Source of the DNA: a virus
DNA: 24,595 nucleotides
Reading direction: 5' to 3' (one strand)
Virus record (IMG/VR): IMGVR_UViG_3300020159_000391
Span: 1-24,595 of that record
The notes under the pieces are model-generated. The model saw only the letters and a list, made by a program, of their open reading frames with translations. It was not told the origin of the DNA and searched no databases. Below are positions 1 through 22,337 of the stretch, one piece after another. Position 1 is the stretch's first letter. Each line of letters starts with the position of its first letter. The position numbers and the translations under genes were made by a program.

Positions 1-588
1 GGTCAGTCTGGCCAATCTGGTGTACAAACTGGTGCTACTGCACTAACAGATCCAGATACTGGTAAACCATACGAAAAAGAAAAACTTGCTGCCAAGTGGG
101 CAGAGAAACCAGCAGTGGCTCAAACAGCAGTATTACCACAAGCTACAACTCCAGGCGCCACTCCTTCAATTAAGTATAACAACGTTCCAGGTATTGGTTC
201 AAAATCTGTACCACAGAAAGCACCAAACTACGGCACAAACTTTGGTGGGTACAACTATGCATCACTACCAAAGCCAACGGCAACAACAGCACCAGTACCT
301 GCAGCACAAGAGCCTATCACAATTGGCGGACAAAAAATCAAACCATCTGATCCTGCATACAACAAGATCATGAAAGGTAATTTAGCTATGTCAGAAACAG
401 TTAATAAAGTTACTGCCATGCTAGAAAATGTACGCACACGTAGTGATGTTCGACGTATTCAAAACTACATTGACATTCAATGCCGCAAACACGGGATCTC
501 TGAATCAACACAACGCGAATTTGTAAAGTCTGTAACTCATGTTGCAGCACTTCGCAGACGTGAACATTCATCACTTCTTGGCAACTAA
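1..588 (+). CDS. Hypothetical Gln/Gly/Pro-rich protein, C-terminal part (5' end outside window)
   Basis: The frame is open from base 1 to the TAA at 586-588, so 195 residues of a longer protein are visible. The first half is low-complexity (repeated GQSGQSG at the edge, then Ala/Thr/Pro/Gln-rich with many AP and TT pairs), which suggests a flexible linker. The last 70 residues are different: charged, predicted mostly helical, with an Arg-rich run (VRTRSDVRRIQNYIDIQCRK) and the ending LRRREHSSLLGN. A GTG at 115 could start a 157-aa protein, but the frame continues upstream with the same composition and there is no Shine-Dalgarno sequence before 115, so I treat it as internal. I do not recognise the family. 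A structural or virion-associated role would fit the linker-plus-helix layout, but this is only a guess. Confidence 0.75.
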   Translation, partial: GQSGQSGVQTGATALTDPDTGKPYEKEKLAAKWAEKPAVAQTAVLPQATTPGATPSIKYNNVPGIGSKSVPQKAPNYGTNFGGYNYASLPKPTATTAPVPAAQEPITIGGQKIKPSDPAYNKIMKGNLAMSETVNKVTAMLENVRTRSDVRRIQNYIDIQCRKHGISESTQREFVKSVTHVAALRRREHSSLLGN

Positions 589-683
589 CACACCTTAGGA
601 CCGGTACTTGTTACCGTAGTGTGAGGCGGCTGCTGCCTTAGGATGAACGATTCGCTACCGGAATTCTTTAAAGTGAGCATTAT

Positions 684-704
684 TTGTTCTAGAGCAAGAC
701 AATT
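684..704 (+). repeat. 21-bp inverted element, left copy
   Basis: The core TTGTTCTAGAGCAAG is followed by ACAATT. The same 21 bases, with one change, occur in opposite orientation at 4578-4598. The first 14 bases are a near-palindrome (TTG-T-TCTAGA-G-CAA), as expected for an operator bound by a dimer. The copy lies 38 bp before the start of the gene at 743. The two copies point inward and enclose the four-gene convergent cassette. Confidence 0.7.
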
Positions 705-727
705 TTAATTTTTCCTGTAAAAGTCAG

Positions 728-735
728 TGTAAATA
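728..735 (+). promoter_or_regulatory. T4-late-like box TGTAAATA
   Basis: TGTAAATA differs from the T4 late consensus TATAAATA at one position. It ends 7 bp before the ATG at 743, and no Shine-Dalgarno sequence lies between. If used, transcription would start almost at the start codon and give a nearly leaderless mRNA. The paralogue on the other strand has the same arrangement (AATAAATA, 5 bp before its ATG), which is the main support. A single 8-bp AT-rich match is weak on its own. Confidence 0.3.
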
Positions 736-742
736 CTTTACA

Positions 743-1624
743 ATGATTATATCTTTTGAATTCCCAGACAAAACAATTGATCTCCAAGTAGATCTAGTAG
801 ACAACCCAGCAATACATAACTGGGCCAACCACTTTTTAACCAAACCGTTTGAGGTGAGGTCGCATGTGATTACTAACGTAAAGCCTCACAAGTTTGATCA
901 GGCAAAAGTATCAGAGTTGTATTCAAAATGTGTTAGCAATATAAATCGTATTAGGGAACTAGGACATCCGTTTGAAGGCTCCATGCCTGAGACTGTCGTA
1001 GACTTATCTAGAGACTGGTGCAATCAAGCACATAGATTTTTTACTCACACACAAAAGTTTGTTAACACAATGTCTAGACCAAAATTGTCGTTAGAAGAAT
1101 ACACTATAGTTCAACGCACACTGACTGATCGACTACAGGAGTTAAATGATGATATACATTTGATTGAAGATTATCTTGCGCCACTTCCGTTAGCACCTAT
1201 TGACTTTAGTGCTGATGAGATTTATTGTAGTGATTTCCCAACATATGATGCACCAGGCTGGTGGCAAATAGAACCCGAATGGAGAAGCTATCATACAGCG
1301 GATCATGCTACTGTAATCTTTGGTCCACAAATTTTAGGCAAAGCTATATTGCGTAGTTATTTGGACGGCGATAATCCCAACGATTGGGACACTACAGGAC
1401 ACTACTGCAACGGTGGCGCTTTGCTAATACAAGTTAGTGATTTTCGCAATCGCATATACACAAGCGAACCGTTTCAGAACTGGTTGAGTAAATGGGGAAT
1501 GACACCAGAACAAGCTGTGTATGATTTTCCTGTAGGTACCGTACAAGATCTTGATCTTGTGCAAGAAGTTTATCGTAGACTCAAAACTTCTACTGATCCA
1601 ATTAGAACTATATACAAAAAATGA
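743..1624 (+). CDS. Conserved-looking phage protein of unknown function, paralogue A
   Basis: A 293-aa protein of unknown function. It is soluble, acidic and Trp-rich in its second half, with no signal peptide or membrane segment. It resembles the 292-aa product encoded at 3663-4541 on the other strand. The first 20 residues align without gaps, with M1, I12, D13, D17, L18 and D20 identical. Near the C-terminus, DFPVGTVQDLDLVQ matches FCPIGKIDDLSKLE, and in the middle FGPQILGKAIL matches YPGEIMLDFPYVGKEPL in outline. The ATG has no Shine-Dalgarno sequence but lies just behind a late-like box and a 21-bp element shared with the paralogue. Its TGA overlaps the ATG of the oxygenase-like gene by 4 nt, so the two are probably co-translated. 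I cannot assign a function. Confidence 0.85.
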   Translation: MIISFEFPDKTIDLQVDLVDNPAIHNWANHFLTKPFEVRSHVITNVKPHKFDQAKVSELYSKCVSNINRIRELGHPFEGSMPETVVDLSRDWCNQAHRFFTHTQKFVNTMSRPKLSLEEYTIVQRTLTDRLQELNDDIHLIEDYLAPLPLAPIDFSADEIYCSDFPTYDAPGWWQIEPEWRSYHTADHATVIFGPQILGKAILRSYLDGDNPNDWDTTGHYCNGGALLIQVSDFRNRIYTSEPFQNWLSKWGMTPEQAVYDFPVGTVQDLDLVQEVYRRLKTSTDPIRTIYKK

Positions 1625-2322
1625 ATCATATACTAAAACAATTTTTTGAAGAAAACGCTGACAACAAGTTTGATTGGCCTGAGCTACCTCCTGGTGATCA
1701 GTACTCACAAACCAATTGGATATTGCATGAATGCACAGCACCTTGGTTCGAAATACACGGTATTGACGCTCCGTATAAAGCTATGCTAGCAGAAGCACAA
1801 GCACTAAAGGATATGTTTGTCGGACATCGTGATGAAGAAGACAAGCATCGAGGTTGGCGCAGTTTAGCTATTCACGGAATTGAAGCTACAAAAACAAATA
1901 TACCAGAAACATATGGATTAAACCCTAATGAAGTAACATACGATTGGACAGAGATACAAGATCGTTGTCCTAAAACTGTTAAGTTCTTTAAAGAATCATT
2001 CCCGTATGATGAGTACATGCGTGTGAGATTTATGTTACTTGAGCCAGGCGGCTACATTCTACCGCACAGTGATAATCAAAAGTGTTTTTTAGGTGCAGCA
2101 ATTAATATATCACTCAACCAACCTGACAACTGTGTGATGGTCAACAAGTACGGAACATTACCATTCCGGGACGAAGGTAGTATGTTCTTCTTTAACAATC
2201 ACTATGAGCATGCGGTGTACAATGGCGGTGATACAGATCGTATTCACATGATTGTACACGGACGCTACAACATGCAGAAGCTAGCTCCACTGATGATCAA
2301 TAGTTGGCCTAAACAACATTAA
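1621..2322 (+). CDS. Putative 2OG-Fe(II) oxygenase, aspartyl/asparaginyl hydroxylase-like
   Basis: A 233-aa protein with the residue pattern of a non-haem iron, 2-oxoglutarate dioxygenase. The double-stranded beta-helix part is in the second half: YMRVRFMLLEPGGYILPHSD gives the metal-binding H149-x-D151, HYEHAVYNGG gives the distal His H197, and TDRIHMIVHG gives R207, the likely 2-oxoglutarate anchor. Spacing and surrounding sequence (PGG before HxD, HAVYN around the distal His) are like the aspartyl/asparaginyl beta-hydroxylase group. The substrate is unknown: protein side chain, sugar, lipid or base are all possible in phages. It overlaps the upstream gene by ATGA. Its 3' end overlaps the converging 450-aa gene tail to tail by 14 bp, leaving no room for a terminator between them. 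Confidence 0.8.
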   Translation: MNHILKQFFEENADNKFDWPELPPGDQYSQTNWILHECTAPWFEIHGIDAPYKAMLAEAQALKDMFVGHRDEEDKHRGWRSLAIHGIEATKTNIPETYGLNPNEVTYDWTEIQDRCPKTVKFFKESFPYDEYMRVRFMLLEPGGYILPHSDNQKCFLGAAINISLNQPDNCVMVNKYGTLPFRDEGSMFFFNNHYEHAVYNGGDTDRIHMIVHGRYNMQKLAPLMINSWPKQH

Positions 2323-3661
2323 AGTATGTGGTGATGTTGCAATTTTCAAATGCAACCAGTGCATGATCTTGACTGGCAAGAACATCATTGAACTCATTAA
2401 ACTTGGCATTGGTCCAACGATGAGTTTTATAAAAACTCAAGTAGTCCATGTTAAACAAGTTACTGGTCCAGATATATGCACCTTTCTTAGACTTGCTGAT
2501 AGCATCTAACACAGGCTGATAATTTTCCAACAAGTTTACATTCACAAACTCAACATTCATGTTCTTGTATTTGTTCCAGGCCTGTTGAAACGACTCTGGA
2601 GTCATCTTGGTTAGAGAGAAGAACCAATCAATAATTTCTTTGAATGACTGGTGCTGATAATAGATTGGTCGCAAGTCTGGATTATCAAACTTGAACTTAT
2701 TGAGTAAGTCTTCGAGAGTATCAAAGTTTCCGTCCCATTCTGCTAGCAAGAACTTCTGCCATTTGATAGCAGCTGGACTTATATCAAACAATACCACATG
2801 TGAGTCTGGATCAAAATTGTCTTGTCCTACAATACATGCTGGTTTTACTCCACTAGCAACTCCTGCAAAGCAATCAAACTGTTTTATCTTTAGAGAGTGT
2901 GGATCGTTTAGTGGCTCGGTGTTTAACACATAGTAGCCAACACTCAAGCTACGAGTCATTTCGGACACTTCATGATGGAACCAAAACAACGGTGACTTTG
3001 AATCTTCTGGAACAAAGACTGGATCGTCAATAATACGTTTGATACCTTCTGCATTGTGTTCTGGATAGCAATAGTTTTTGCGTTCACGAACAGATGTAGG
3101 AACGTTAGTGATGTTATATCCAGCTGCAATCAGTTTAGAAATAACTTGTATACCAAATCCTTGATAATCACAAGTGTATTCTGCTGACTCCGGATGAGAG
3201 TGCAACCACCATGGCGTGTAATCATCATGTACATTATCCAAACTGCGTTCTGTTTTTCTAGTGTTTAATGTAATGTTACCACGCTGCTCCTCAAATGGGG
3301 GACACTCAATTTCTCTATATGCTATCAAGTCAATAGCAAACCACTGAGGATGAAAGTGAAAGTATCCTTGACGATCTAAGATATGACATGCCAGCGGTGA
3401 TTGTTGTGTAATAGCATGTTCAACTGTTTGTTGAATCTGTGCTTGTTCTCTGATGGTAGTACCAGCGGCAGCTACCACTGCCCATTTGTAAGTGCTAGCT
3501 AACGCAGTTAGTGTTTCTGTAATGTTTTTTGTATCAAATATTTTGTATTGATACTGACCGCCAAACTTGAATCTAGTTAGGTCGCATAAGTTTTCTTCTA
3601 TGTCTGCACAGGTGTCTGGCAAGTTGTTGTATAACACAACGGCAATGTCTTGATGATTCAT
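2309..3661 (-). CDS. Unknown 450-aa two-domain protein, possibly transferase-like
   Basis: I do not recognise the family. Residues 1-130 have an alternating alpha/beta pattern: IAVVLYNNLP at the start, WAVVAAAGTT at 60-69, and ACHILDRQGYFHFHPQWFAID at 91-111, which is reminiscent of GT-A-like phage proteins. A charged, Trp/His-rich linker follows. Residues 262-410 look Rossmann-like: FAGVASGVKPACIVG, then SHVVLFDISPAAIKWQKFL (an Asp after a hydrophobic strand, as in SAM-binding folds) and later GAYIWTSNLFN. A sugar transferase fused to a methyltransferase-like domain is one reading, not proven. The start has a Shine-Dalgarno-like AGGA about 5 bp upstream. It lies 1 bp downstream of the paralogue B stop, so the two minus-strand genes form an operon that converges on the oxygenase-like gene. 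Confidence 0.8.
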   Translation of the reverse strand: MNHQDIAVVLYNNLPDTCADIEENLCDLTRFKFGGQYQYKIFDTKNITETLTALASTYKWAVVAAAGTTIREQAQIQQTVEHAITQQSPLACHILDRQGYFHFHPQWFAIDLIAYREIECPPFEEQRGNITLNTRKTERSLDNVHDDYTPWWLHSHPESAEYTCDYQGFGIQVISKLIAAGYNITNVPTSVRERKNYCYPEHNAEGIKRIIDDPVFVPEDSKSPLFWFHHEVSEMTRSLSVGYYVLNTEPLNDPHSLKIKQFDCFAGVASGVKPACIVGQDNFDPDSHVVLFDISPAAIKWQKFLLAEWDGNFDTLEDLLNKFKFDNPDLRPIYYQHQSFKEIIDWFFSLTKMTPESFQQAWNKYKNMNVEFVNVNLLENYQPVLDAISKSKKGAYIWTSNLFNMDYLSFYKTHRWTNAKFNEFNDVLASQDHALVAFENCNITTYFNVV

Positions 3662-3662
3662 A

Positions 3663-4541
3663 TTATCCTATTAATTCGTAATTTGTAAGTTTTATAACTG
3701 GTGAAGTTCTGATGTATTCTAGTTTAGATAGGTCGTCAATTTTACCAATAGGGCAAAAACCAGACCTTGCTAACATGAGTTCAACACTATAGCCCATGTT
3801 GTCCAGCCTCTCCTTGTGTTGCATATACCAGTTGGTTAGTGCAGCATCAATATCTTTTGGCCAATCGCCGCCAGACCATTGTGTTGATGGACCTTTAGAT
3901 AAGTTCAACTTCCAACTAAAACTAATGTGTTCGATAATTTTGCATGCTTGCTCTAACATGTCGTTGTCGTTGTGCATCATGCAGTAGAGTGGTTCTTTGC
4001 CTACATACGGAAAGTCTAGCATAATCTCGCCTGGGTAAAGTATTCGTTTGAATACTGTATCCTTGGGCATTTCTGGTCTCTGAAGTTCTCCACGATACGT
4101 AAGCTGGATCATGTCTCTAGGTTTAAACTCATAATCAAGTTGTGCATCTTCTGACTCTAAGCTGTGCAAGCACCAATGTAATTCGTCAACCAACAGTCGC
4201 TGGTTATCTTCTAAGCCTTCGTATTTGTTTATCCCTGCTTTAACCTCAACATCTCTGTGCATTTGGTTAAAGATCACTTGGTTAGCTGCATAGTTTTCGG
4301 CACCGTGCAAGATAGTATAGTGCGCCCAATCTACTATGTTTTGTTGTTGTGCATCAGCAATCAGTTCTCTAAAATAATTGATGTTGAATCGATTATAGTC
4401 CTGCAATGAAGCCTCAGCCCAGTCTGGGCGATTGTTCTTAAGGGCTCGATGAGCGTTGTAAAATAACTCAGCTACTTCGGTATCGTAGAGGTCAATGTTG
4501 AAATCAATATCGTTGTTGATCTCGATGTGGAATTTAGGCAT
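3663..4541 (-). CDS. Conserved-looking phage protein of unknown function, paralogue B
   Basis: A 292-aa protein from the ATG at 4541. The frame also has an ATG at 4562 (seven more residues, MFKINIL), with a weak AGGG 4 bp before it. I prefer 4541 because the protein then aligns without gaps to the N-terminus of the paralogue at 743 (shared M1, I12, D13, D17, L18, D20). The distance to the 21-bp element also becomes 36 bp, against 38 bp in the paralogue. The C-terminal FCPIGKIDDLSKLE matches the paralogue's DFPVGTVQDLDLVQ. Overall identity is low and no catalytic motif or membrane segment is seen. It is the first gene of a minus-strand pair and runs opposite to the replication genes. The function is unknown. 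Confidence 0.8.
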   Translation of the reverse strand: MPKFHIEINNDIDFNIDLYDTEVAELFYNAHRALKNNRPDWAEASLQDYNRFNINYFRELIADAQQQNIVDWAHYTILHGAENYAANQVIFNQMHRDVEVKAGINKYEGLEDNQRLLVDELHWCLHSLESEDAQLDYEFKPRDMIQLTYRGELQRPEMPKDTVFKRILYPGEIMLDFPYVGKEPLYCMMHNDNDMLEQACKIIEHISFSWKLNLSKGPSTQWSGGDWPKDIDAALTNWYMQHKERLDNMGYSVELMLARSGFCPIGKIDDLSKLEYIRTSPVIKLTNYELIG

Positions 4542-4546
4542 TAAAA

Positions 4547-4554
4547 TATTTATT
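4547..4554 (-). promoter_or_regulatory. T4-late-like box AATAAATA on minus strand
   Basis: Read on the minus strand, AATAAATA is one base from TATAAATA and ends 5 bp before the ATG at 4541, mirroring the box before 743. There is no Shine-Dalgarno sequence between box and ATG. If the upstream ATG at 4562 is the real start, this stretch is coding and the box is coincidental. Confidence 0.3.
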
Positions 4555-4577
4555 TTGAACATGCTGCCCTAAACAAT

Positions 4578-4598
4578 AATTGACTTGCTCTAGAACAA
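4578..4598 (-). repeat. 21-bp inverted element, right copy
   Basis: On the minus strand this reads TTGTTCTAGAGCAAG followed by TCAATT, identical to 684-704 except for one base (T for A after CAAG). It ends 36 bp before the preferred start of paralogue B. Read on the plus strand, the same bases form the -35 box and most of the spacer of the dsbA-like promoter (4580-4608). A protein bound here could therefore affect transcription both ways. Confidence 0.7.
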
Positions 4599-4608
4599 CA
4601 TGTATAAT
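4580..4608 (+). promoter_or_regulatory. Sigma70-like promoter for the dsbA-like gene
   Basis: TTGACT (4580-4585), a 17-bp spacer, then a perfect TATAAT (4603-4608). The expected start near 4615 leaves a leader of about 13 nt containing AAGGAGAAC before the ATG at 4628. The near-palindrome TTGCTCTAGAACAA lies between the two boxes, in operator position. Confidence 0.75.
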
Positions 4609-4627: not shown

Positions 4628-4888
4628 ATGGAACAAAAGACTTTTAACGGTGATCAAAAGATCAAACTCATTCAAATGATCAACGAGGGTATGCAAGTAA
4701 CCCAGGAGATCGAAACACTCACTGGTGGGCTTAACGATACAATCAAAGCTGTAGCCGAAGAGTTAGAAATCAAACCTGGTGTTTTGAAGAAGGCCATTAA
4801 ACTAGCACACAAAGCTGAGTTTGGTAAGGCTAAACAAGATCATGAATTGCTTGAAACAATTCTTGAGACTGTGGGCAAAACATTATAA
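4628..4888 (+). CDS. dsbA: Small dsDNA-binding protein, T4 DsbA-like
   Basis: 86 aa from the ATG at 4628, chosen because AAGGAGAAC lies just upstream and a sigma70-like promoter ends 20 bp before it; the longer reading frame starting at 4580 would begin inside that promoter. The protein is small, charged and all-helical. It has a heptad-like N-terminal stretch (IKLIQMINEGMQVTQEIETL), then the basic segment IKPGVLKKAIKLAHKAEFGKAK, then an acidic C-terminal helix (HELLETILETVGKTL). This pattern is like the DsbA family of T4-like phages, double-stranded DNA-binding proteins proposed to assist late transcription. The assignment rests on recalled sequence style and position beside the polymerase gene, not on an alignment. 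Confidence 0.6.
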   Translation: MEQKTFNGDQKIKLIQMINEGMQVTQEIETLTGGLNDTIKAVAEELEIKPGVLKKAIKLAHKAEFGKAKQDHELLETILETVGKTL

Positions 4889-4960
4889 GTACTGTTTTAC
4901 AACAGCGAGTCGCTCACGTTACGAGCATGAATCACGGCTTACCGGCCACAAACGGAGATT
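4889..4960 (+). promoter_or_regulatory. Leader of the DNA polymerase gene with competing hairpins
   Basis: These 72 bp are more GC-rich than their surroundings. AGCG/CGCT (4904-4914, loop AGT) and GCTC/GAGC (4912-4926, loop ACGTTAC) share bases and cannot form together. GGAG at 4954-4957 is the ribosome binding site. No good sigma70 -10 box is seen. In T4, gp43 represses its own translation by binding a hairpin in its leader, so an analogous operator is possible here. Confidence 0.3.
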
Positions 4961-7624
4961 ATGAGTTATATTGACGCACTATATGATCGTGAACACGATC
5001 GAATTCACGTGGTAGAACGCCGCAACGGCATTCGCAAATACCAAGAGTACCCAGCCAACTACGTTTTCTACTATGATGACAATCGTGGTAAATTTCGCAA
5101 CATCTTTGGCAACCCAGTGTCGCGTTTTAGTACACGCAACAACAAGGAATTTCGCAAAGAAGTTCGCATGCACTCGGGCAAACAATTGTATGAGTCAGAC
5201 ATCAATCCTATCTTTCGATGCTTGGAAGAAAACTACAAGGATCAAGATGCTCCTGAAATTCACACAGCGTTTTTCGACATTGAAGTAGACTTTCACAAGG
5301 ACAAAGGCTTCTCACCTGTAGAAGATCCGTTCAATGCAATCACTGCAATCTCAGTATACTTGAACTGGTTAGATCAATTGGTTACTCTAGCAGTACCTCC
5401 CAAGCACTTGAGCATGGAAACTGCACAAGAGCTAGTTGCCGAATTTGAAAACACTATCTTGTTTGATAAAGAAGAGGACATGCTTAAAATGTTCTTGGAT
5501 CTAATTGAAGACGCAGATGTGTTGTCAGGTTGGAACTCAGAAGGCTATGATATTCCGTACACAGTTAACCGCATCACTAGAGTGTTATCTAAAGATGATA
5601 CTCGTAAGTTTTGCTTGTGGGGACAGTTTCCTAAGAAGCGTATGTTTGAACGCTTTGGTGCAGAGCAAGAAACGTATGACTTGGTAGGCCGTGTACACAT
5701 GGACTATATGCAGTTGTATCGCAAGTACACTTATGAAGAGCGTCACAGCTATTCACTAGATGCTATTGCCGAATACGAACTAGGTGATCGCAAGACACAG
5801 TTCGAAGGCACACTTGATCAATTGTACAACCAACACTTCCGCACGTTCATTGAATACAACAGACAAGATACTGCACTGCTGGACAAGCTGGACAAGAAGT
5901 TGCGTTTCTTAGAACTTGCAAGTGAACTAGCACATGCTAACACAGTATTGTTGCAAACAACAATGGGTGCTGTGGCTGTGACTGAGCAAGCTATTATCAA
6001 CGAAGCTCATGAACGTGGCATGGTTGTACCCAATCGTCAACACCGCGATGACAGTGCAGACAATCAAGCAGCCGGGGCGTATGTTGCATATCCTAAAAAA
6101 GGTGTGCATGAATGGGTAGGCTCAGTTGACATTAACTCTTTGTATCCATCTGCGATTCGTGCAATGAACATGGGACCAGAAACTGTGGTTGCGCAGTTGC
6201 GTCCTATTATCACTGACAAATACATCAAAGACAAGATGGTCAAGAACGGTGGTAAGTTTGCTGATGCATGGGAAGGATTGTTTGGCAGTTTCGAATACGA
6301 AGCTGTTATGAAACAAGAGATTGGTACAGAGATTACTATTGACTGGCAAGACGGCAATTCTAGCACACATTCGGCTGCTGAGATTTGGTCAATTATATTT
6401 GACAGCAACCAGCCTTGGATTATGACTGCAAATGGTACTATTCTTACCTACGAGAAGAAAGGTATCATCCCTGGCTTGCTAGAGCGTTGGTACTCAGAGC
6501 GTAAGGAAATGCAAGCCAAGAAGAAAGAAGCAACCGATCCCAAAGACATTGCGTTCTGGGACAAGAGACAGCTAGTTAAGAAGATTAACTTGAACAGTTT
6601 GTACGGTGCTATTTTGAATCCAGGTTGTAGATTCTTCGACAAGCGTATTGGACAATCAACTACACTAACTGGTCGTGCAATTGCTAGACATATGGATGCA
6701 CACTTAAATGAACTTATTACAGGCGAATATGATCACCTGGGCAAGTCAGTTATCTACGGTGACACAGACTCCTGCTACTTTAGCGCATGGCCTGTGCTAG
6801 AGAAGGAAGTTAAAGAAGGCAGGATGGCCTGGTCGAAAGAAACTTGTATTCAGTTGTATGACAACCTTGCTGAACAAGTCAACGAAAGTTTCCCGGGCTT
6901 TATGGAACGTGCGTTTCACTGCCCGAGAGATATGGGATCACTTATCAAGTGTGGTCGTGAAACTGTAGCAGATCGAGGTTTGTTCATTACCAAGAAGCGT
7001 TATGCAGTTAATGCCATTGACGTCGAAGGCAAACGCTATGATGTTGACGGTAAGATTGGTAAAACAAAAGCCACAGGCCTAGACCTAAAGCGTAGTGACA
7101 CACCCAAGGTTATTCAGGACTTCTTGTTAGAAATTCTAAATAAACTACTAGCAGGTGCTGGCAAGGATGAAATCGTGGAACGTATACGCGAATTCAAGTA
7201 TGAGTTCAAAGAGCGTCCAGGTTGGGAGAAAGGTTCACCCAAGCGTGTTAACAACTTGACCATGTACGGTGCCAAGGAAGTAAAAGAAGGCAAAGCCAAC
7301 ATGCCTGGGCATGTTAGAGCAGCACTGAACTGGAACAACTTAAGACGCATGAACGGCGACAACTACTCTATGCAAATTGTAGACGGTATGAAAACTATTG
7401 TTTGTAAACTAAAACCCAACGCATTGGGATGGACATCAATTGGCTATCCTACTGATGAGAAGCGTTTGCCGCAGTGGTTTGTTGAATTGCCGTTTGACGA
7501 CAGCTTGATGGAAGCCACAGTAGTTGATGGTAAAGTTGATAACTTGCTCGGTGTGTTAGATTGGGATTTAGCCAGTGCTACTAACACAGAAAACACATTT
7601 ACATCATTGTTTGCATTTGAATGA
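4961..7624 (+). CDS. 43: Family B DNA polymerase, T4 gp43-like
   Basis: Replicative DNA polymerase with 3'-5' proofreading exonuclease, 887 aa, close to the 898 aa of T4 gp43, so complete. Exonuclease motifs: Exo I FFDIEVDF (D106, E108), Exo II LSGWNSEGYDIPY (D197), Exo III YNRQD (Y299, D303). Polymerase motifs: A SVDINSLYPSAIR (D390, 388-400), B KKINLNSLYGAILN (540-553) and C VIYGDTDSCY (598-606). All catalytic residues are present, with no intein, split or frameshift. The C-terminus ends TSLFAFE, which resembles the hydrophobic tail by which T4 gp43 binds its clamp; a clamp gene follows 1 kb downstream. The start at 4961 has GGAG 3 bp before it. The stop overlaps the next ATG by 4 nt. Confidence 0.97.
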   Translation: MSYIDALYDREHDRIHVVERRNGIRKYQEYPANYVFYYDDNRGKFRNIFGNPVSRFSTRNNKEFRKEVRMHSGKQLYESDINPIFRCLEENYKDQDAPEIHTAFFDIEVDFHKDKGFSPVEDPFNAITAISVYLNWLDQLVTLAVPPKHLSMETAQELVAEFENTILFDKEEDMLKMFLDLIEDADVLSGWNSEGYDIPYTVNRITRVLSKDDTRKFCLWGQFPKKRMFERFGAEQETYDLVGRVHMDYMQLYRKYTYEERHSYSLDAIAEYELGDRKTQFEGTLDQLYNQHFRTFIEYNRQDTALLDKLDKKLRFLELASELAHANTVLLQTTMGAVAVTEQAIINEAHERGMVVPNRQHRDDSADNQAAGAYVAYPKKGVHEWVGSVDINSLYPSAIRAMNMGPETVVAQLRPIITDKYIKDKMVKNGGKFADAWEGLFGSFEYEAVMKQEIGTEITIDWQDGNSSTHSAAEIWSIIFDSNQPWIMTANGTILTYEKKGIIPGLLERWYSERKEMQAKKKEATDPKDIAFWDKRQLVKKINLNSLYGAILNPGCRFFDKRIGQSTTLTGRAIARHMDAHLNELITGEYDHLGKSVIYGDTDSCYFSAWPVLEKEVKEGRMAWSKETCIQLYDNLAEQVNESFPGFMERAFHCPRDMGSLIKCGRETVADRGLFITKKRYAVNAIDVEGKRYDVDGKIGKTKATGLDLKRSDTPKVIQDFLLEILNKLLAGAGKDEIVERIREFKYEFKERPGWEKGSPKRVNNLTMYGAKEVKEGKANMPGHVRAALNWNNLRRMNGDNYSMQIVDGMKTIVCKLKPNALGWTSIGYPTDEKRLPQWFVELPFDDSLMEATVVDGKVDNLLGVLDWDLASATNTENTFTSLFAFE

Positions 7625-8596: not shown

Positions 8597-9319
8597 ATGA
8601 GAGATTGTCTTTTAGACTTAGTAGAACACACATATGATCTTGGCTGTATTGACTTGATCAAGATCACTGGCGATGATGCCAGTACACAAGTTAGTGGCTT
8701 GGCAGAAGATTTGAGCGTGGTAGTCCAGGCTGAATTCAATAACCCAGTGGCTGACTTTGTTGGCACATTTGGTATGCCAAACTTGGGCAAGCTCAAGACA
8801 TTGCTTAACTTGCAAGAATATCGCGAGGATGCTAAACTTGCAATCACACGCCGTACAACCGGCGAGCCAGACGGCATCAACTTTGAAAACAAAACAGGTG
8901 ACTTTAAAAACAACTATCGTTTCATGGCAAGTGAAATTGTCAACGACAAGTTGAAAACTGCAAAGTTCAAAGGTGTTAACTGGCACATTGAATTTGAACC
9001 CACTGTAGCAAGCATCATGCGTTTGAAGATGCAGATGAGTGCCAACGCAGAAGAAGCAAACTTCCAGGCAAAGACTGAAAATGGTGACTTAAAGTTCTTC
9101 TTTGGTGACCATAGCTCACATGCTGGTAACTTTGTTTTCCACCCAGGTGTTAACGGTTCCTTGAAGCGTACATGGAGCTGGCCTGCTTCACAAGTGTCTA
9201 GCATCTTGAGCTTGACTGGTAACAAAACATTCAAGATCAGTGATGATGGCGCCGCACAAATTACAGTAGATTCTGGTCTTGCTGTTTACAACTACATCTT
9301 ACCAGCACAAAGCAAGTAA
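8597..9319 (+). CDS. 45: DNA polymerase sliding clamp, T4 gp45-like
   Basis: 240 aa, close to the 228 aa of T4 gp45. The start at 8597 is set by TAGGAGAAC upstream; the in-frame ATG at 8546 lies in the promoter and upstream gene. The sequence shows the clamp pattern of two repeated beta-rich halves with short helices: VVVQAEFNNPVADFVGTFGM with LGKLKTLLNLQEY in the first half, and GNFVFHPGVNGSLKRTWSWP with VSSILSL and a final strand set ending AVYNYILPAQSK in the second. In T4, gp45 is a trimeric ring that tethers the polymerase and also activates late transcription with gp33 and gp55. It starts an operon with dpdA, the 172-aa gene and the radical SAM gene; its TAA overlaps the ATG of dpdA by one base. 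Confidence 0.88.
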   Translation: MRDCLLDLVEHTYDLGCIDLIKITGDDASTQVSGLAEDLSVVVQAEFNNPVADFVGTFGMPNLGKLKTLLNLQEYREDAKLAITRRTTGEPDGINFENKTGDFKNNYRFMASEIVNDKLKTAKFKGVNWHIEFEPTVASIMRLKMQMSANAEEANFQAKTENGDLKFFFGDHSSHAGNFVFHPGVNGSLKRTWSWPASQVSSILSLTGNKTFKISDDGAAQITVDSGLAVYNYILPAQSK

Positions 9320-10947
9320 TGACCGAGCCAGTTCAAGACAATCTCACAGCCAAGCAGAATGACTATGCGGTCTTTCTGCCTGCGATTTCTGGATTCTACG
9401 CTACGTTTGTGGGCAAGCAAAGGAATGAGCATTATGTCGATCCGAATAGATTTCCTAAAGGCCTTACGGACATGGAACAGCTTAACTGGCTCAACTCCAC
9501 CAAAGCGTTATTCCCTTATAAGTGGAGCCTATACTCAGGTGGACATGCTAACTTGGATCTTTCAAAGCAAGATTGGTCCGAAGACATGGTTCGAAACAGA
9601 GAGCCAGGCACCTTTGTGTTGGGCGACTCAGGAGGTTTCCAGATCGCTAAAGGCTTGTGGGAAGGTGATTGGAAAGCCAACTCTGGTTGCCCTAAGGCTC
9701 AAAAGAAACGTGAGCTTATCTTGAACTGGCTAGACAATGTGTCTGACTACGGCATGATCTTGGATATTCCAACATGGGTCATTCATGATAAAAAGGCCTC
9801 AGCAGCCTGTCAAATTACTACACTACAAGAAGCAGTTGATGCTACCAAGTTCAATAACAACTACTTTATGCAACATCGCAAAGGTGTTGCTAATGGTGGC
9901 GCCAAGTTCTTGAACGTTCTACAAGGTGACAATCATACGTCAGCTGAAGCATGGTATCAGGAAATGAAAGACTTCTGCGATCCTGCAAAGTACCCAGACA
10001 CACACTTTGACGGTTGGTCAATGGGTGGTCAGAACATGTGTGATGTACACTTGGTATTAAAACGCCTTGTTGCACTACGGTACGACAACTTGTTACAAGA
10101 GGGCAAGCACGATTGGATGCACTTCTTGGGCACAAGTAAATTAGAGTGGGCAGTATTGCTCACTGTTATTCAGCGAGCTGTAAGAAAATATGTCAACCCT
10201 GCTTTTACTATTAGTTTTGATTGCGCTAGTCCATTCCTTGCAACGGCGAACGGGCAAGTCTATTTTGAAAACGTTTTTGAGCACAATTCAAAGTGGAGCT
10301 ACCGAATGGCGCCATCAGCAGACGATAAAAAATACTCTACCGACACAAGACCCTGGGCGCAAGGAGTAGTAACAGACGGAGTCTATCCTCGCTGGCAAGA
10401 TTCACCTATAAGCTCAATGCTCACAATGAAAGATATCTGTATCTACAAAGCTGGCACACCAAAGCCTGGTGTTGTGCTTACAGAAGAAAACTTCCGTGAT
10501 CCTGAGTTGTACGATGTATTACCAGATGTAAACAAGAACGGTAAGTGGGGAAAGACATCATGGGATAGCTTCTCTTATGCATTGTTAATGGGCCATAATG
10601 TTTACCTGCACTTAACTGCTGTACAAGAAGCTAACAGACGTTTTGATGCAGGCGAACATCCTGCAATGATGCGTCGATCAGGCGGAGACTATGCTAAGTT
10701 TGAAGATATTGTAGAAGCCATTTTTGCAGCACCAGATAGAGAAACTGCTGACGCTATTATTGAAACCTATGATTCATACTGGATGGAGATTGTAGGCACA
10801 CGCGGATTCAAAGGTAAGAAAACCAAAAACGCTCGTACCCAATTTAACGCATTGTTTGATTTTGAAGAACCCGAGGTTGCGGGCATTGCAGATGATAGTG
10901 TACAATTAGACTCAACAGCATTAGATATTTTAGAGGATTCTCAATGA
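9319..10947 (+). CDS. dpdA: DpdA-like DNA guanine transglycosylase (TGT superfamily)
   Basis: 542 aa with the TIM-barrel motifs of tRNA-guanine transglycosylases in order: LGDSGGFQI (101-109, matching SDSGGFQ with the pocket Asp D103), LDIPT (148-152), NVLQGD (199-204, matching VQGG), DGWSMGG (231-237, matching the GGL loop), HFLGTSK (268-274) and SFDCASPF (299-306, with D301 in the position of the TGT nucleophile). The CxCxxC zinc site of bacterial tRNA TGT is not seen, and the C-terminus is longer and acidic. DpdA proteins exchange guanine in DNA for 7-deazaguanine derivatives. With folE, queD and queE in the same window, a DNA target is much more likely than tRNA. It is joined to the clamp gene by TAATG and to the next gene by ATGA. 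The exact DpdA subfamily cannot be set by eye. Confidence 0.85.
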   Translation: MTEPVQDNLTAKQNDYAVFLPAISGFYATFVGKQRNEHYVDPNRFPKGLTDMEQLNWLNSTKALFPYKWSLYSGGHANLDLSKQDWSEDMVRNREPGTFVLGDSGGFQIAKGLWEGDWKANSGCPKAQKKRELILNWLDNVSDYGMILDIPTWVIHDKKASAACQITTLQEAVDATKFNNNYFMQHRKGVANGGAKFLNVLQGDNHTSAEAWYQEMKDFCDPAKYPDTHFDGWSMGGQNMCDVHLVLKRLVALRYDNLLQEGKHDWMHFLGTSKLEWAVLLTVIQRAVRKYVNPAFTISFDCASPFLATANGQVYFENVFEHNSKWSYRMAPSADDKKYSTDTRPWAQGVVTDGVYPRWQDSPISSMLTMKDICIYKAGTPKPGVVLTEENFRDPELYDVLPDVNKNGKWGKTSWDSFSYALLMGHNVYLHLTAVQEANRRFDAGEHPAMMRRSGGDYAKFEDIVEAIFAAPDRETADAIIETYDSYWMEIVGTRGFKGKKTKNARTQFNALFDFEEPEVAGIADDSVQLDSTALDILEDSQ

Positions 10948-17918: not shown

Positions 17919-18731
17919 TTGACAAAAAACTTTACACCAGATCCAATCATCCATTCGGATTCAAAGAACACATTTATCCCCCACGCTCACCAAAGCGCAA
18001 TCGAAAAAGCCGCCCTGGACATGAGCGACAAGGGCTATGAAGAAGGGTATCTAGCAGATGCAATTCGTGCCAAGATGAAGCGTGATCAAAAACGTTTCTG
18101 GGCAGGCGACAACATCAGTGATTATGTTTCAGAAGAGATGAAGCATACCCTTATTGATGAAGCAACCGAAGCATTTGAATTAGTGCTTGATCGTTTGCTG
18201 ATTGATCGAGAAACAGATCCAAACTCGCACGGTACAGCACGTAGGCTAGCCAAGATGTACTTCAATGAAATTATGGAAGGTAGATATGAACCAGGACCAG
18301 ACGCAACAGCGTTCCCAAATGATTCAGCGGACCGTTATGAGGGTATGCTTGTTGTACGTAGTGAGTTGCGCAGTATGTGTTCTCATCATCACCAGCCTGT
18401 GGCTGGCGTTGCTTATATTGGCATTATTGCTGCTAATAAACTTATCGGTCTTAGTAAGTATACCCGAATCGCTCAGTGGTGCGCCCGTCGAGGCACTCTC
18501 CAGGAGGAACTTTGTAACGACATTGCCCGCGAGATTAGCAAAGCTACTGACTCCGAAAACGTAGCAGTATACATTCAGGCCACACATGGTTGCTGTGAGA
18601 ATCGCGGCATCATGGCACACTCTAGTCTCACACAGACCACAGTACTCAAAGGTGCGTTCAAGACTGATCCGTCTGTGAAGAAAGAGTTCTTTGACAATAT
18701 TAAATTACAACAGGAGTTTGCCCCACGATGA
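17919..18731 (+). CDS. folE: GTP cyclohydrolase I
   Basis: 270 aa from a TTG start at 17919, fixed by CGGAGAAC 4 bp upstream and by the promoter before it; no ATG fits. Converts GTP to dihydroneopterin triphosphate, the first step toward 7-deazaguanines and folates. Motifs: HGTARRLAKMYF (104-115), RSMCSHHHQP with zinc ligands C154 and H157, LIGLSKYTRIAQW, RRGTLQEEL (RxQxQE region) and ATHGCCENRGI with the third zinc ligand C225. The Glu of the usual CEHH is Ser155, and the segment after HHH is shortened (QPVAGVAYIG in place of PFxGxxHVAYIP). The N-terminus is about 50 residues longer than in E. coli FolE (222 aa). It starts the unit with the HIT gene (ATGA overlap) and feeds queD and queE. 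Confidence 0.93.
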   Translation: MTKNFTPDPIIHSDSKNTFIPHAHQSAIEKAALDMSDKGYEEGYLADAIRAKMKRDQKRFWAGDNISDYVSEEMKHTLIDEATEAFELVLDRLLIDRETDPNSHGTARRLAKMYFNEIMEGRYEPGPDATAFPNDSADRYEGMLVVRSELRSMCSHHHQPVAGVAYIGIIAANKLIGLSKYTRIAQWCARRGTLQEELCNDIAREISKATDSENVAVYIQATHGCCENRGIMAHSSLTQTTVLKGAFKTDPSVKKEFFDNIKLQQEFAPR

Positions 18732-19323: not shown

Positions 19324-19827
19324 ATGACAAATCAAGCAAGACAATACAAATTTACTTCTACCAAAGAGTACCATGACGCATTTCCGTGTGCGTATAGACA
19401 GTGGAGGGCCGACTCTCACTGTAACTTAATTCATGGTTACAGTTTTTCAATGAAGTTTTATTTTGGCACAGACGATTTAGACGTGCGTAACTGGGCTGCC
19501 GACTACGGCGGACTCAAAGAACTAAAGAAGATTTTAGAAAGTCAGTTTGACCACACTTTGTTAGTGGCACAGGATGATCCAGAGCTTGATTTTTACAAAC
19601 AAATGGAAGCACGTAAACTGGCTAAACTTACAATTCTGCCTCGCTTGGGCTGTGAAGGTCTAGCAGACATGCTGTACAAGTATGTCAACGGCATTTACGT
19701 TCCAGAAATGTGGGGCGAAGGCGAAGCACAAAGATTATGGTGTTATCGCGTAGAAGTACGTGAGACACAAAGCAACATGGCGTTCCGTGAAGGACACCGT
19801 GAATGGAATGAGGATTTATTTGCGTAA
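19324..19827 (+). CDS. queD: 6-carboxy-tetrahydropterin synthase-like protein (QueD)
   Basis: 167 aa; start set by AGGAGAAC. QueD makes 6-carboxy-tetrahydropterin from the FolE product. Motifs against E. coli QueD (from memory): HCNLIHGYS (32-40) with C33 as the catalytic Cys and H37; ADYGGLKELKKIL (59-71); FDHTLL (75-80) with D76 and H77; GCEGLADMLYKYV with E111; and YRVEVRETQSNMAF with E147. Two zinc His positions are changed: AAHRL is CAYRQ (Y24) and HGH is HGY (Y39). H32, beside the Cys, might compensate. HGY appears in other phage QueD-like proteins as I recall; Y24 is the more surprising. Whether it still makes 6-carboxy-tetrahydropterin is therefore open. Its stop is followed at 12 bp by a glycosyltransferase start. 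Confidence 0.8.
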   Translation: MTNQARQYKFTSTKEYHDAFPCAYRQWRADSHCNLIHGYSFSMKFYFGTDDLDVRNWAADYGGLKELKKILESQFDHTLLVAQDDPELDFYKQMEARKLAKLTILPRLGCEGLADMLYKYVNGIYVPEMWGEGEAQRLWCYRVEVRETQSNMAFREGHREWNEDLFA

Positions 19828-20726: not shown

Positions 20727-21495
20727 AGAACGTATTAAAAAATACTGGAATACACAACCCTGTAACATCAAACACGGGCAAAGCGACCTTGGTACACCAG
20801 AGTTCTTTCGTGAAGTAAGTGAACGCAGATATCGTGTTGAACCACACATTGCTGAGTTTGCTGGATTCCATCTATGGGCAGGCAAACGTGTGCTTGAAAT
20901 TGGCTGCGGCATTGGTTCTGATGCTGAAGAGTTTGCCAAACACGGTGCTGAATATGTGGGCATTGACCTAAGTGATCAAAGCATTGCACTTAGTTGCCAA
21001 CGATTTAAAACACTAGAACTAGAAGGTGAGTTCTACAATGTGGATGCAACTGATGCTGATGCACTTGCTTCTCTAGGTGAGTTTGATCTTGTTTACAGTT
21101 ATGGAGTTATTCATCACTTTCCGGGCATTGATAAGATTATTAGCAACGTCCAAGCAGTGGTTAAACCAGGTGGCGAATTCCGTTACATGGTTTATGCCAA
21201 AAACTCTTGGAAGTATGCAATGATCCAAAAGGGTCTGGACCAATTTGAAGCACAAGCAGGTTGCCCGTATGCACAGGCATTTAGCAAAGATGAAATTCAC
21301 CAATTGATGAATGAAAACAATGGATGGCACATTGAGAGGTTGCGTCAAGACCATTGTTTCATGTATAATGTAGATTCGTACAAGGCAGGACGCTATGAGT
21401 TGGAACCGTGGTTTGAAGCCATGAGTGAATCACATCGTCAGGCTGTTAGAGAATATTTGGGTTGGCATCTTTTAGTTAAAGCAAGAAAATTATGA
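20707..21495 (+). CDS. Class I SAM-dependent methyltransferase
   Basis: 262 aa from the ATG at 20707; the longer frame back to 20569 lies wholly inside the glycosyltransferase gene in another phase. Clear motifs: RVLEIGCGIGSDAEEFAKHG (motif I, 61-80), YVGIDLSDQSI with the acidic residue D87 that binds the ribose of SAM, and FDLVYSYGVIHHFPG (126-140), typical of Methyltransf_11 small-molecule enzymes, then VVKPGGEFRYMVYA. The IHHF form of motif IV favours O- or C-methylation of a small molecule or sugar over DNA base methylation. Its stop overlaps the queE start by ATGA. A sugar or glycan methyl group is the most economical guess given the neighbours. Confidence 0.88.
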   Translation: MQHLSLEERIKKYWNTQPCNIKHGQSDLGTPEFFREVSERRYRVEPHIAEFAGFHLWAGKRVLEIGCGIGSDAEEFAKHGAEYVGIDLSDQSIALSCQRFKTLELEGEFYNVDATDADALASLGEFDLVYSYGVIHHFPGIDKIISNVQAVVKPGGEFRYMVYAKNSWKYAMIQKGLDQFEAQAGCPYAQAFSKDEIHQLMNENNGWHIERLRQDHCFMYNVDSYKAGRYELEPWFEAMSESHRQAVREYLGWHLLVKARKL

Positions 21496-22337
21496 AATTT
21501 AAAGTATCAGAACTATTCTATTCAGCACAAGGCGAAGGCCGTTACGTTGGTGTACCCAGCGTGTTTCTTCGTATGTTTGGATGTAACTTTACCTGTTCGG
21601 GGTTTGGTTGCAAGCCCGGACAAGCTAGCACAGAAGCAGACGAAGTTGCCAAGAGTGTGCATCTCTACAAAACATTTGAAGAGCTGCCACTAGTGAGCAC
21701 AGGGTGTGACAGCTATGCGTCATGGCATCCTGCATTCAAAGAACTCAGCCCTACTTATACAGAAGACGAGCTGGTAGAAAAGATGGCAGCATTGTTGCCA
21801 CATGGCAACTGGCAACAGCCCAATGGTAATCCTGTACACTTGGTTATCACAGGTGGCGAACCCTTGCTGGGCTGGCAACGTGCATATCCTGCATTACTGA
21901 ACAAACTACACGAGCGTGGCCTGAGACACATTACATTTGAGACTAACGGTACTCAAGAATTGTCAAGAGATTTTAAACTGTACTTGAGCAACTGGCACGG
22001 TGAGATTACATTCTCAGTAAGCCCAAAGCTGAGTGTGTCAGGCGAGAAGTGGGAAGAGGCAATCAAGCCAGAGATCATTTTTGATCTTGAAACATATGGT
22101 ATAACTTATCTTAAGTTTGTGGTTGAGAAGGTGCAAGACTTTGACGAGCTGGATCGTGCTGTTGATGAGTACAGACTTGCACAGTTTTCAGGTCCGGTGT
22201 TTGTAATGCCTGTAGGCGGTGTGGTCTCAGTGTACGATGGCAATCGCATTAACGTAGCAGACGAAGCACTTAAACGTGGTTACTGGTATAGTCCACGATT
22301 ACACGTTGACCTTTGGGGCAACGGTTGGGGGAAATAA
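21492..22337 (+). CDS. queE: 7-carboxy-7-deazaguanine synthase (QueE), radical SAM
   Basis: 281 aa. Converts 6-carboxy-tetrahydropterin to CDG. Typical QueE features: ELFYSAQGEGRYVGVPSVFL (7-26), then LRMFGCNFTC with C31 and C35, VITGGEPLL, TFETNGT, TFSVSPKLS, and a long C-terminus (QueE of bacteria about 220 aa). The usual CxxxCxxC is interrupted. The standard third Cys sits in a C-D-T motif; here the match is GCDSYASW (C72-D73-S74), so about 36 residues are inserted between the second and third cluster Cys. The insert holds another Cys (C40 in SGFGC). Which Cys completes the cluster is not decided by sequence alone. The ATG overlaps the methyltransferase stop; the next gene follows directly. 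Confidence 0.9.
   Translation: MKFKVSELFYSAQGEGRYVGVPSVFLRMFGCNFTCSGFGCKPGQASTEADEVAKSVHLYKTFEELPLVSTGCDSYASWHPAFKELSPTYTEDELVEKMAALLPHGNWQQPNGNPVHLVITGGEPLLGWQRAYPALLNKLHERGLRHITFETNGTQELSRDFKLYLSNWHGEITFSVSPKLSVSGEKWEEAIKPEIIFDLETYGITYLKFVVEKVQDFDELDRAVDEYRLAQFSGPVFVMPVGGVVSVYDGNRINVADEALKRGYWYSPRLHVDLWGNGWGK

Follow-up and report, generated by a model that had tools for sequence, protein, structure and literature searches.

A probable promoter-control site in two inverted copies within a variable gene slot of an uncultured T4-like jumbo phage

Two nearly identical 21-bp elements stand inverted at either end of a four-gene block in the phage DNA analysed here, and, judging from their placement relative to predicted promoters, they are probably copies of one transcriptional control site and not recombination sites (we put the probability at roughly 0.55). 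Comparison of related loci has shown that the four genes occupy a cargo slot with varying gene content, bounded by a conserved structured RNA on the left and by a dsbA-like gene on the right. DNA polymerase comparison identified the stretch analysed (the window, 24,595 bp) as a genome fragment from a T4-like jumbo phage: the enzyme shares 51% identity with its counterpart in Sinorhizobium phage Phosso (469 kb) and 47% with the one in Agrobacterium phage Atu_ph07. One of its uncultured relatives, G004, is represented by a 320-kb contig. The features of the window are as follows.

588..678, plus strand: conserved structured RNA, left boundary of the slot, with hairpins and an invariant 3' AAGTGAGC
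684..704 (core 684-697), plus strand: left copy of the 21-bp element, at this position in no relative
728..735, plus strand: late-promoter-like box TGTAAATA before gene A, a weak match to NATAAATA
743..1624, plus strand: gene A, 293 aa, of a family with no named function found in this phage group only
1621..2322, plus strand: gene B, aspartyl/asparaginyl beta-hydroxylase-like (PF05118, E 1.8e-15)
2309..3661, minus strand: gene C, 450 aa, relatives at 48-57% identity
3663..4541, minus strand: gene D, 292 aa, relatives at 72-75% and 49% identity
4547..4554, minus strand: AATAAATA, a late promoter box of T4 type, 5 nt before the ATG of gene D
4578..4598 (core 4585-4598), minus strand: right copy of the 21-bp element, kept in all D-bearing relatives
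4580..4608, plus strand: sigma70-type promoter TTGACT-17-TATAAT of the dsbA-like gene, 11/12 to consensus and the single one in the region
4628..4888, plus strand: dsbA-like gene (T4 DsbA family; phrog_639 E 1.9e-7, phrog_12534 E 1.5e-18), right boundary of the slot
4961..7624, plus strand: DNA polymerase (T4 gp43-like; phrog_262 E 4.5e-198)

Gene content of the slot

The gene layout described in an earlier note on this DNA was confirmed: A and B are read from the plus strand and C and D from the minus strand, B and C overlap tail to tail by 14 bp (2309-2322), and A and D start 38 and 36 bp from their elements, the D start (MPKF, ATG 4541) being conserved in relatives. Homologues of A were found at 50-53% identity in the closer loci (L002-4, L015) and at 31-34% in L058-L064. 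Gene A gave no match in Pfam, PHROG or INPHARED, tblastn of INPHARED with A, D and the L062 homologue of A gave none either, and a search of genome contigs for the A family yielded no confirmed relative. None of the proteins A to D matched a defence family in PADLOC.

Scanning for the RNA returned at least 119 IMG/VR stretches, 77 of which were analysed for slot content. Among relatives, the interval from the RNA to dsbA holds zero to five genes. It is empty in a dozen contigs, contains one radical-SAM gene in some and A plus a radical-SAM gene in others (e.g., L058-L064, where all are co-directional and B, C, D and the core are missing). In L092/L099 the order is radical SAM-B-221-aa ORF-C-D, while the window's own group carries A-B-C-D or variants. 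The cargo radical-SAM gene of L058 (2605-3723) shows weak matches to prokaryotic viperins (E 2e-8), and in PADLOC it alone gave weak viperin-like matches. Such an interval, in which up to five genes are exchanged while the neighbours on both sides stay fixed, resembles the gene-exchange hotspots (hyperplastic regions) of T4-like phages, but differs from them in that its left flank is a conserved covarying RNA absent from Rfam 15. The interval can now be recognised as a slot for cargo genes shared by a large group of uncultured jumbo phages, and cargo replacement would most likely proceed via homologous recombination in the conserved flanks.

The earlier note had suggested, as one of two readings, that 684-4598 may be a cassette that inverts, or is exchanged, by recombination at the inverted 21-bp repeats, an arrangement that would have been unusual. 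The repeats are inverted and near-identical and the gene content of the region is variable, as such a cassette would have it. However, paired inverted sites are not conserved at both ends: the D-bearing relatives were examined for a left partner of the right element and none has one. The block is inverted in no relative, and in every related locus compared (loci, not reads) C and D, wherever present, lie on the minus strand and A and B on the plus strand relative to dsbA. Moreover, the slot of the relatives extends from the RNA to the dsbA promoter, and in empty or alternative slots the starting point is the RNA (AAGTGAGC) and not the 21-bp repeat. Pfam scans of the tested proteins of this 24.6-kb fragment, in which a distant recombinase is possible, matched no recombinase, and repeats of 21 bp are short for an inversion by ordinary homologous recombination. 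The cassette reading is very probably wrong. Relatives in which the block is missing or replaced by other genes do exist, as the note had proposed to check, but what varies is the RNA-dsbA interval and not the stretch between the two elements.

The two elements and their promoter context

The 20/21 identity of the two copies was borne out; the element reads TTGTTCTAGAGCAAG(A/T)CAATT, with a 14-base core, TTGYTCTAGARCAA. The 24.6-kb contig contains no third copy at up to three mismatches, and the two copies are the sole pair of 21-mers in the window with at most one mismatch. Among dinucleotide shuffles of the window, 2 of 40 had one or more pairs of this kind (mean 0.05), which puts p at about 0.05 from length alone, and the core occurred in none of 200 shuffles. 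The significance of the pair comes from its setting: each copy is intergenic and has a TAAATA box 32 bp farther on, and relatives conserve the right copy. When left and right copies are set in one ungapped 57-bp register, they agree at 20/21 positions, then at 6/20, then at 12/16, where the last block is the TAAATA region of both copies and an equally good match is given by 0.02% of window 16-mers. A chance likeness of two AT-rich intergenic stretches would be allowed by the roughly 5% of shuffled windows that contain some 20/21 pair, but given the intergenic position of both copies, their equal distance from late-type boxes, the conservation of the right copy and the rarity of matches as good as the 12/16 block, we regard it as hardly credible. 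Since the end blocks are matched at constant spacing and the middle is unrelated, the alignment fits a two-part control site better than it fits the end of a recombining segment or passive copying in the recent past. As a palindrome, the core was no better than chance in comparison with shuffled upstream regions. The exact 21-mer had no match in IMG/VR, because the element of the relatives has one extra base.

On the right, the 14-bp core falls within the spacer of the dsbA promoter, which agrees with the sigma70 pattern TTGACA-16/18-TATAAT. The D-dsbA interval of every D-bearing relative contains TTGACT(T)TGCTCTAGAACAA, followed by a -10-like TAYAAT, and sigma70-like promoters are retained before dsbA across 65 distinct upstream sequences. 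In the leftward direction, the core is followed by 32 bp, TAAATA, 5 bp and the ATG of D, a spacing that the window shares with every relative that has the exact core. D has a predicted T4-type late promoter, a box similar to TATAAATA at -10, which reads AATAAATA in the window and likewise in every relative. In L092/L099, where D is only 49% identical, the core is kept with one change, and relatives without D lack the core too. A palindrome common to all dsbA promoters was also considered and rejected, as few are strong, these differ from each other, and most are no better than shuffled sequence. The dsbA promoter of L116 and L168 is overlapped by another strong palindrome, TTGTGTGTATACTTACACACAA, unlike the core; the slot of L116 is empty.

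On the left, the element was found in the window only among all relatives compared, i.e., in a single genome. By the earlier note's own yardstick its reading is largely refuted: relatives conserve the element on the right but not on the left, and A and D show no paralogy in profile-profile comparison (see below). At the corresponding position, the RNA is followed directly by gene A in L015 and by an intervening 221-aa ORF in L002-L004; A is missing in G004 and L014. Viral contigs scanned for the RNA 3' end followed by the core gave only an unrelated match in L183 (AAGTGAGC near a core), rejected as a coincidence in an unrelated context, and matches to the promoter pattern in L007, L013, L017, L019 and L020 were rejected for their unrelated contexts. 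In the left copy, TAAATA begins 32 bp past the core, the same distance as in the right one. The left copy matches the window's right copy at 38/57 positions, more than the right copies of the relatives do (31-32/57), these counts being ungapped and hence approximate given the one-base shift in the relatives. This closer match suggests copying or homogenising in the window's own lineage.

The left copy could be a functionless relic, dating from a slot rearrangement in which a short piece of the D promoter region ended up as a copy beside the RNA. Its presence in a single lineage, the frequent rearrangement of the slot, the imperfect late-promoter box and a minus strand with just a weak 9/12 promoter-like site would all fit. 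In a relic, however, even decay would be expected, whereas here the ends are kept at constant spacing and the 20 bases between them are unrelated; we hold this explanation to be possible, though on the unlikely side.

According to the earlier note, the symmetry might also reflect the inverted duplication of an ancestral promoter-gene unit, with A and D as old paralogues. The part of this proposal that concerns the upstream segment is supported, in that a control segment appears to be present twice in inverted orientation (the 38/57 match). The part that concerns the genes found no support: A and D gave a blastp E of 0.17, a hhalign probability of 0.2-0.6% and a z of 0.9 in a custom profile alignment, results of a sensitivity limited by shallow profiles of up to 10 and 6 sequences (Neff 1.4-2.4), and an HMM search of A against all ORFs did not recover D. 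Similar length, a beta-hairpin start and the predicted order of elements are shared by A and D, although the structure models are poor (pLDDT 61 for A and 41 for D), and the bipartite promoter match would fit as well. The low-confidence model of A returned nothing significant from the PDB. Considering in addition that A has relatives in genomes without D and without the core, common descent of the two genes appears improbable.

A putative control site shared by D, A and dsbA

Our preferred reading, that the elements are copies of one control site, would work as follows. The right copy lies between the divergent D and dsbA genes, and a regulator on the core would block the early promoter of dsbA (and perhaps of the polymerase) by occupying its spacer. 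The same core-bound regulator, of phage or host origin, could influence late transcription of D and A from a position about 50 bp upstream of the start of each, so that a copy of the site together with a late-promoter box before A may have allowed A-B to be switched together with D-C, for which the window is the one instance. Against this reading, the late box of A (TGTAAATA) is weak, the left copy occurs in one genome, the core does not stand out as a palindrome, and a second core in G004 lies at another distance from its late box (see below). If correct, duplication of a promoter-control site would bring an exchanged accessory gene under existing control.

Late promoters of the T4 type, TATAAATA, are read by the host polymerase modified by gp55, gp33 and gp45. 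They need no upstream site, and an upstream activator would thus be unusual. The boxes described here are similar to them, with AATAAATA 5 nt before D and NATAAATA before many G004 genes, but several are leaderless (ATG 4-5 nt past the box), and those of D and A have a fixed upstream 14-bp site. The right site is also reminiscent of operators in divergent phage promoter regions, where one near-palindromic site lies between two divergent promoters; unlike those, it has a second copy 3.9 kb away before another gene, and its regulator is putative.

The dsbA-like product belongs to the T4 DsbA family by PHROG profiles, its Pfam match (PF11126, E 0.041) being below the cut-off for that model. In T4, binding of DsbA to A/T-rich sites that cover two late promoters was reported, but later in vitro assays saw no effect; dsbA has a possible link to late transcription (PMC2988020). 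The gene described here resembles T4 dsbA in that it encodes a small phrog_639/phrog_12534-type protein and belongs to a T4-like phage. It differs in that it precedes the DNA polymerase, whereas T4 dsbA overlaps gene 33, and in having a sigma70 promoter whose spacer contains the core in D-bearing phages. DsbA itself was considered as the protein that binds the core and set aside as unpromising: L058 lacks the site, yet its DsbA is 96.5% identical.

The G004 contig provided a view of late promoters at genome scale. Of its NATAAATA sites, 23/37 are followed by the start of an ORF at no more than 60 nt, most often at 5 and 17-18 nt, compared with 8/57, 12/49 and 13/36 for three control words; two control words that overlap NATAAATA scored about equal to the motif. 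These counts are consistent with NATAAATA being a T4-type late promoter in G004. Several late boxes stand 4-5 nt before an ATG in the G004 pieces L042, L044, L048, L049 and L052, a distance that implies leaderless late mRNAs in these phages. A second copy of the core in G004 (L028:1501-1514) abuts a late promoter box (0 bp, not 32) before the gene of an Asn-rich protein, and imperfect versions of this copy occur in similar sequence in other phages (L071, L072).

A conserved structured RNA at the slot edge

The RNA at 588-678 is, in our view, a more valuable lead than the element pair, given its strong covariation, its presence in more than 100 stretches, its position beside replication genes and its absence from the Rfam 15 catalogue. 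Its hairpins carry the invariant loops TTAGGACC, GGCTGCT and ATTCGCTAC. In an alignment of 48 distinct sequences (A6), the covariation score was 0.229 against 0.068 (sd 0.007) after shuffling, and 89.8% of cells were paired against 33-42% with the partners slid. The compensatory changes exceed both controls, as expected of a conserved structured RNA; for instance, GGGC/GCCC is replaced by GCCC/GGGC around the invariant GGCTGCT loop. Helices P1 and P3 were missed by RNAalifold alone and were added by hand before being counted. In addition, TTCGCT in the third loop can form an invariant 6-bp pairing with AGTGAG in the 3' tail, possibly an H-type pseudoknot, for which covariation gives no proof as the pairing does not vary.

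The window and the 320-kb G004 each contain one copy of the RNA. The stretches with the RNA come from uncultured phage contigs of up to 345 kb, and in most contigs long enough it lies upstream of dsbA and DNA polymerase. In the window it begins at the upstream stop codon, and its 3' end is shortly followed by either the first cargo ATG or the promoter of dsbA. It matched none of the 4227 covariance models of Rfam 15, neither at gathering score nor with E values of up to 5 allowed, and it was absent from INPHARED by blastn. Candidate roles are a cis-regulator of the cargo genes, a 3'-end or processing signal, or a recombination flank. It is conceivable, although we would call it a long way from likely, that an undescribed RNA marks the slot edge and controls or times the cargo genes, together with a dual-role operator copied to both cargo ends.

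Other observations in the window

The leader of the polymerase gene (4903-4960, CAGCGAGTCGCTCACGTTACGAGCATGAATCACGGCTTACCGGCC) is near-identical in relatives despite a divergence of 11-16% in the polymerase, and is a candidate translational operator resembling that of T4 gp43. Further downstream, the window contains four genes at 9319-10947, 17919-18731, 19324-19827 and 21492-22337. Taken together, and not necessarily in this order, they encode a GTP cyclohydrolase I, a PTPS/QueD-like protein, a weakly matching radical-SAM (QueE-like) protein and a 542-aa protein. The 542-aa protein presumably resembles phage transglycosylases, and the four genes together are possibly a 7-deazaguanine modification set.
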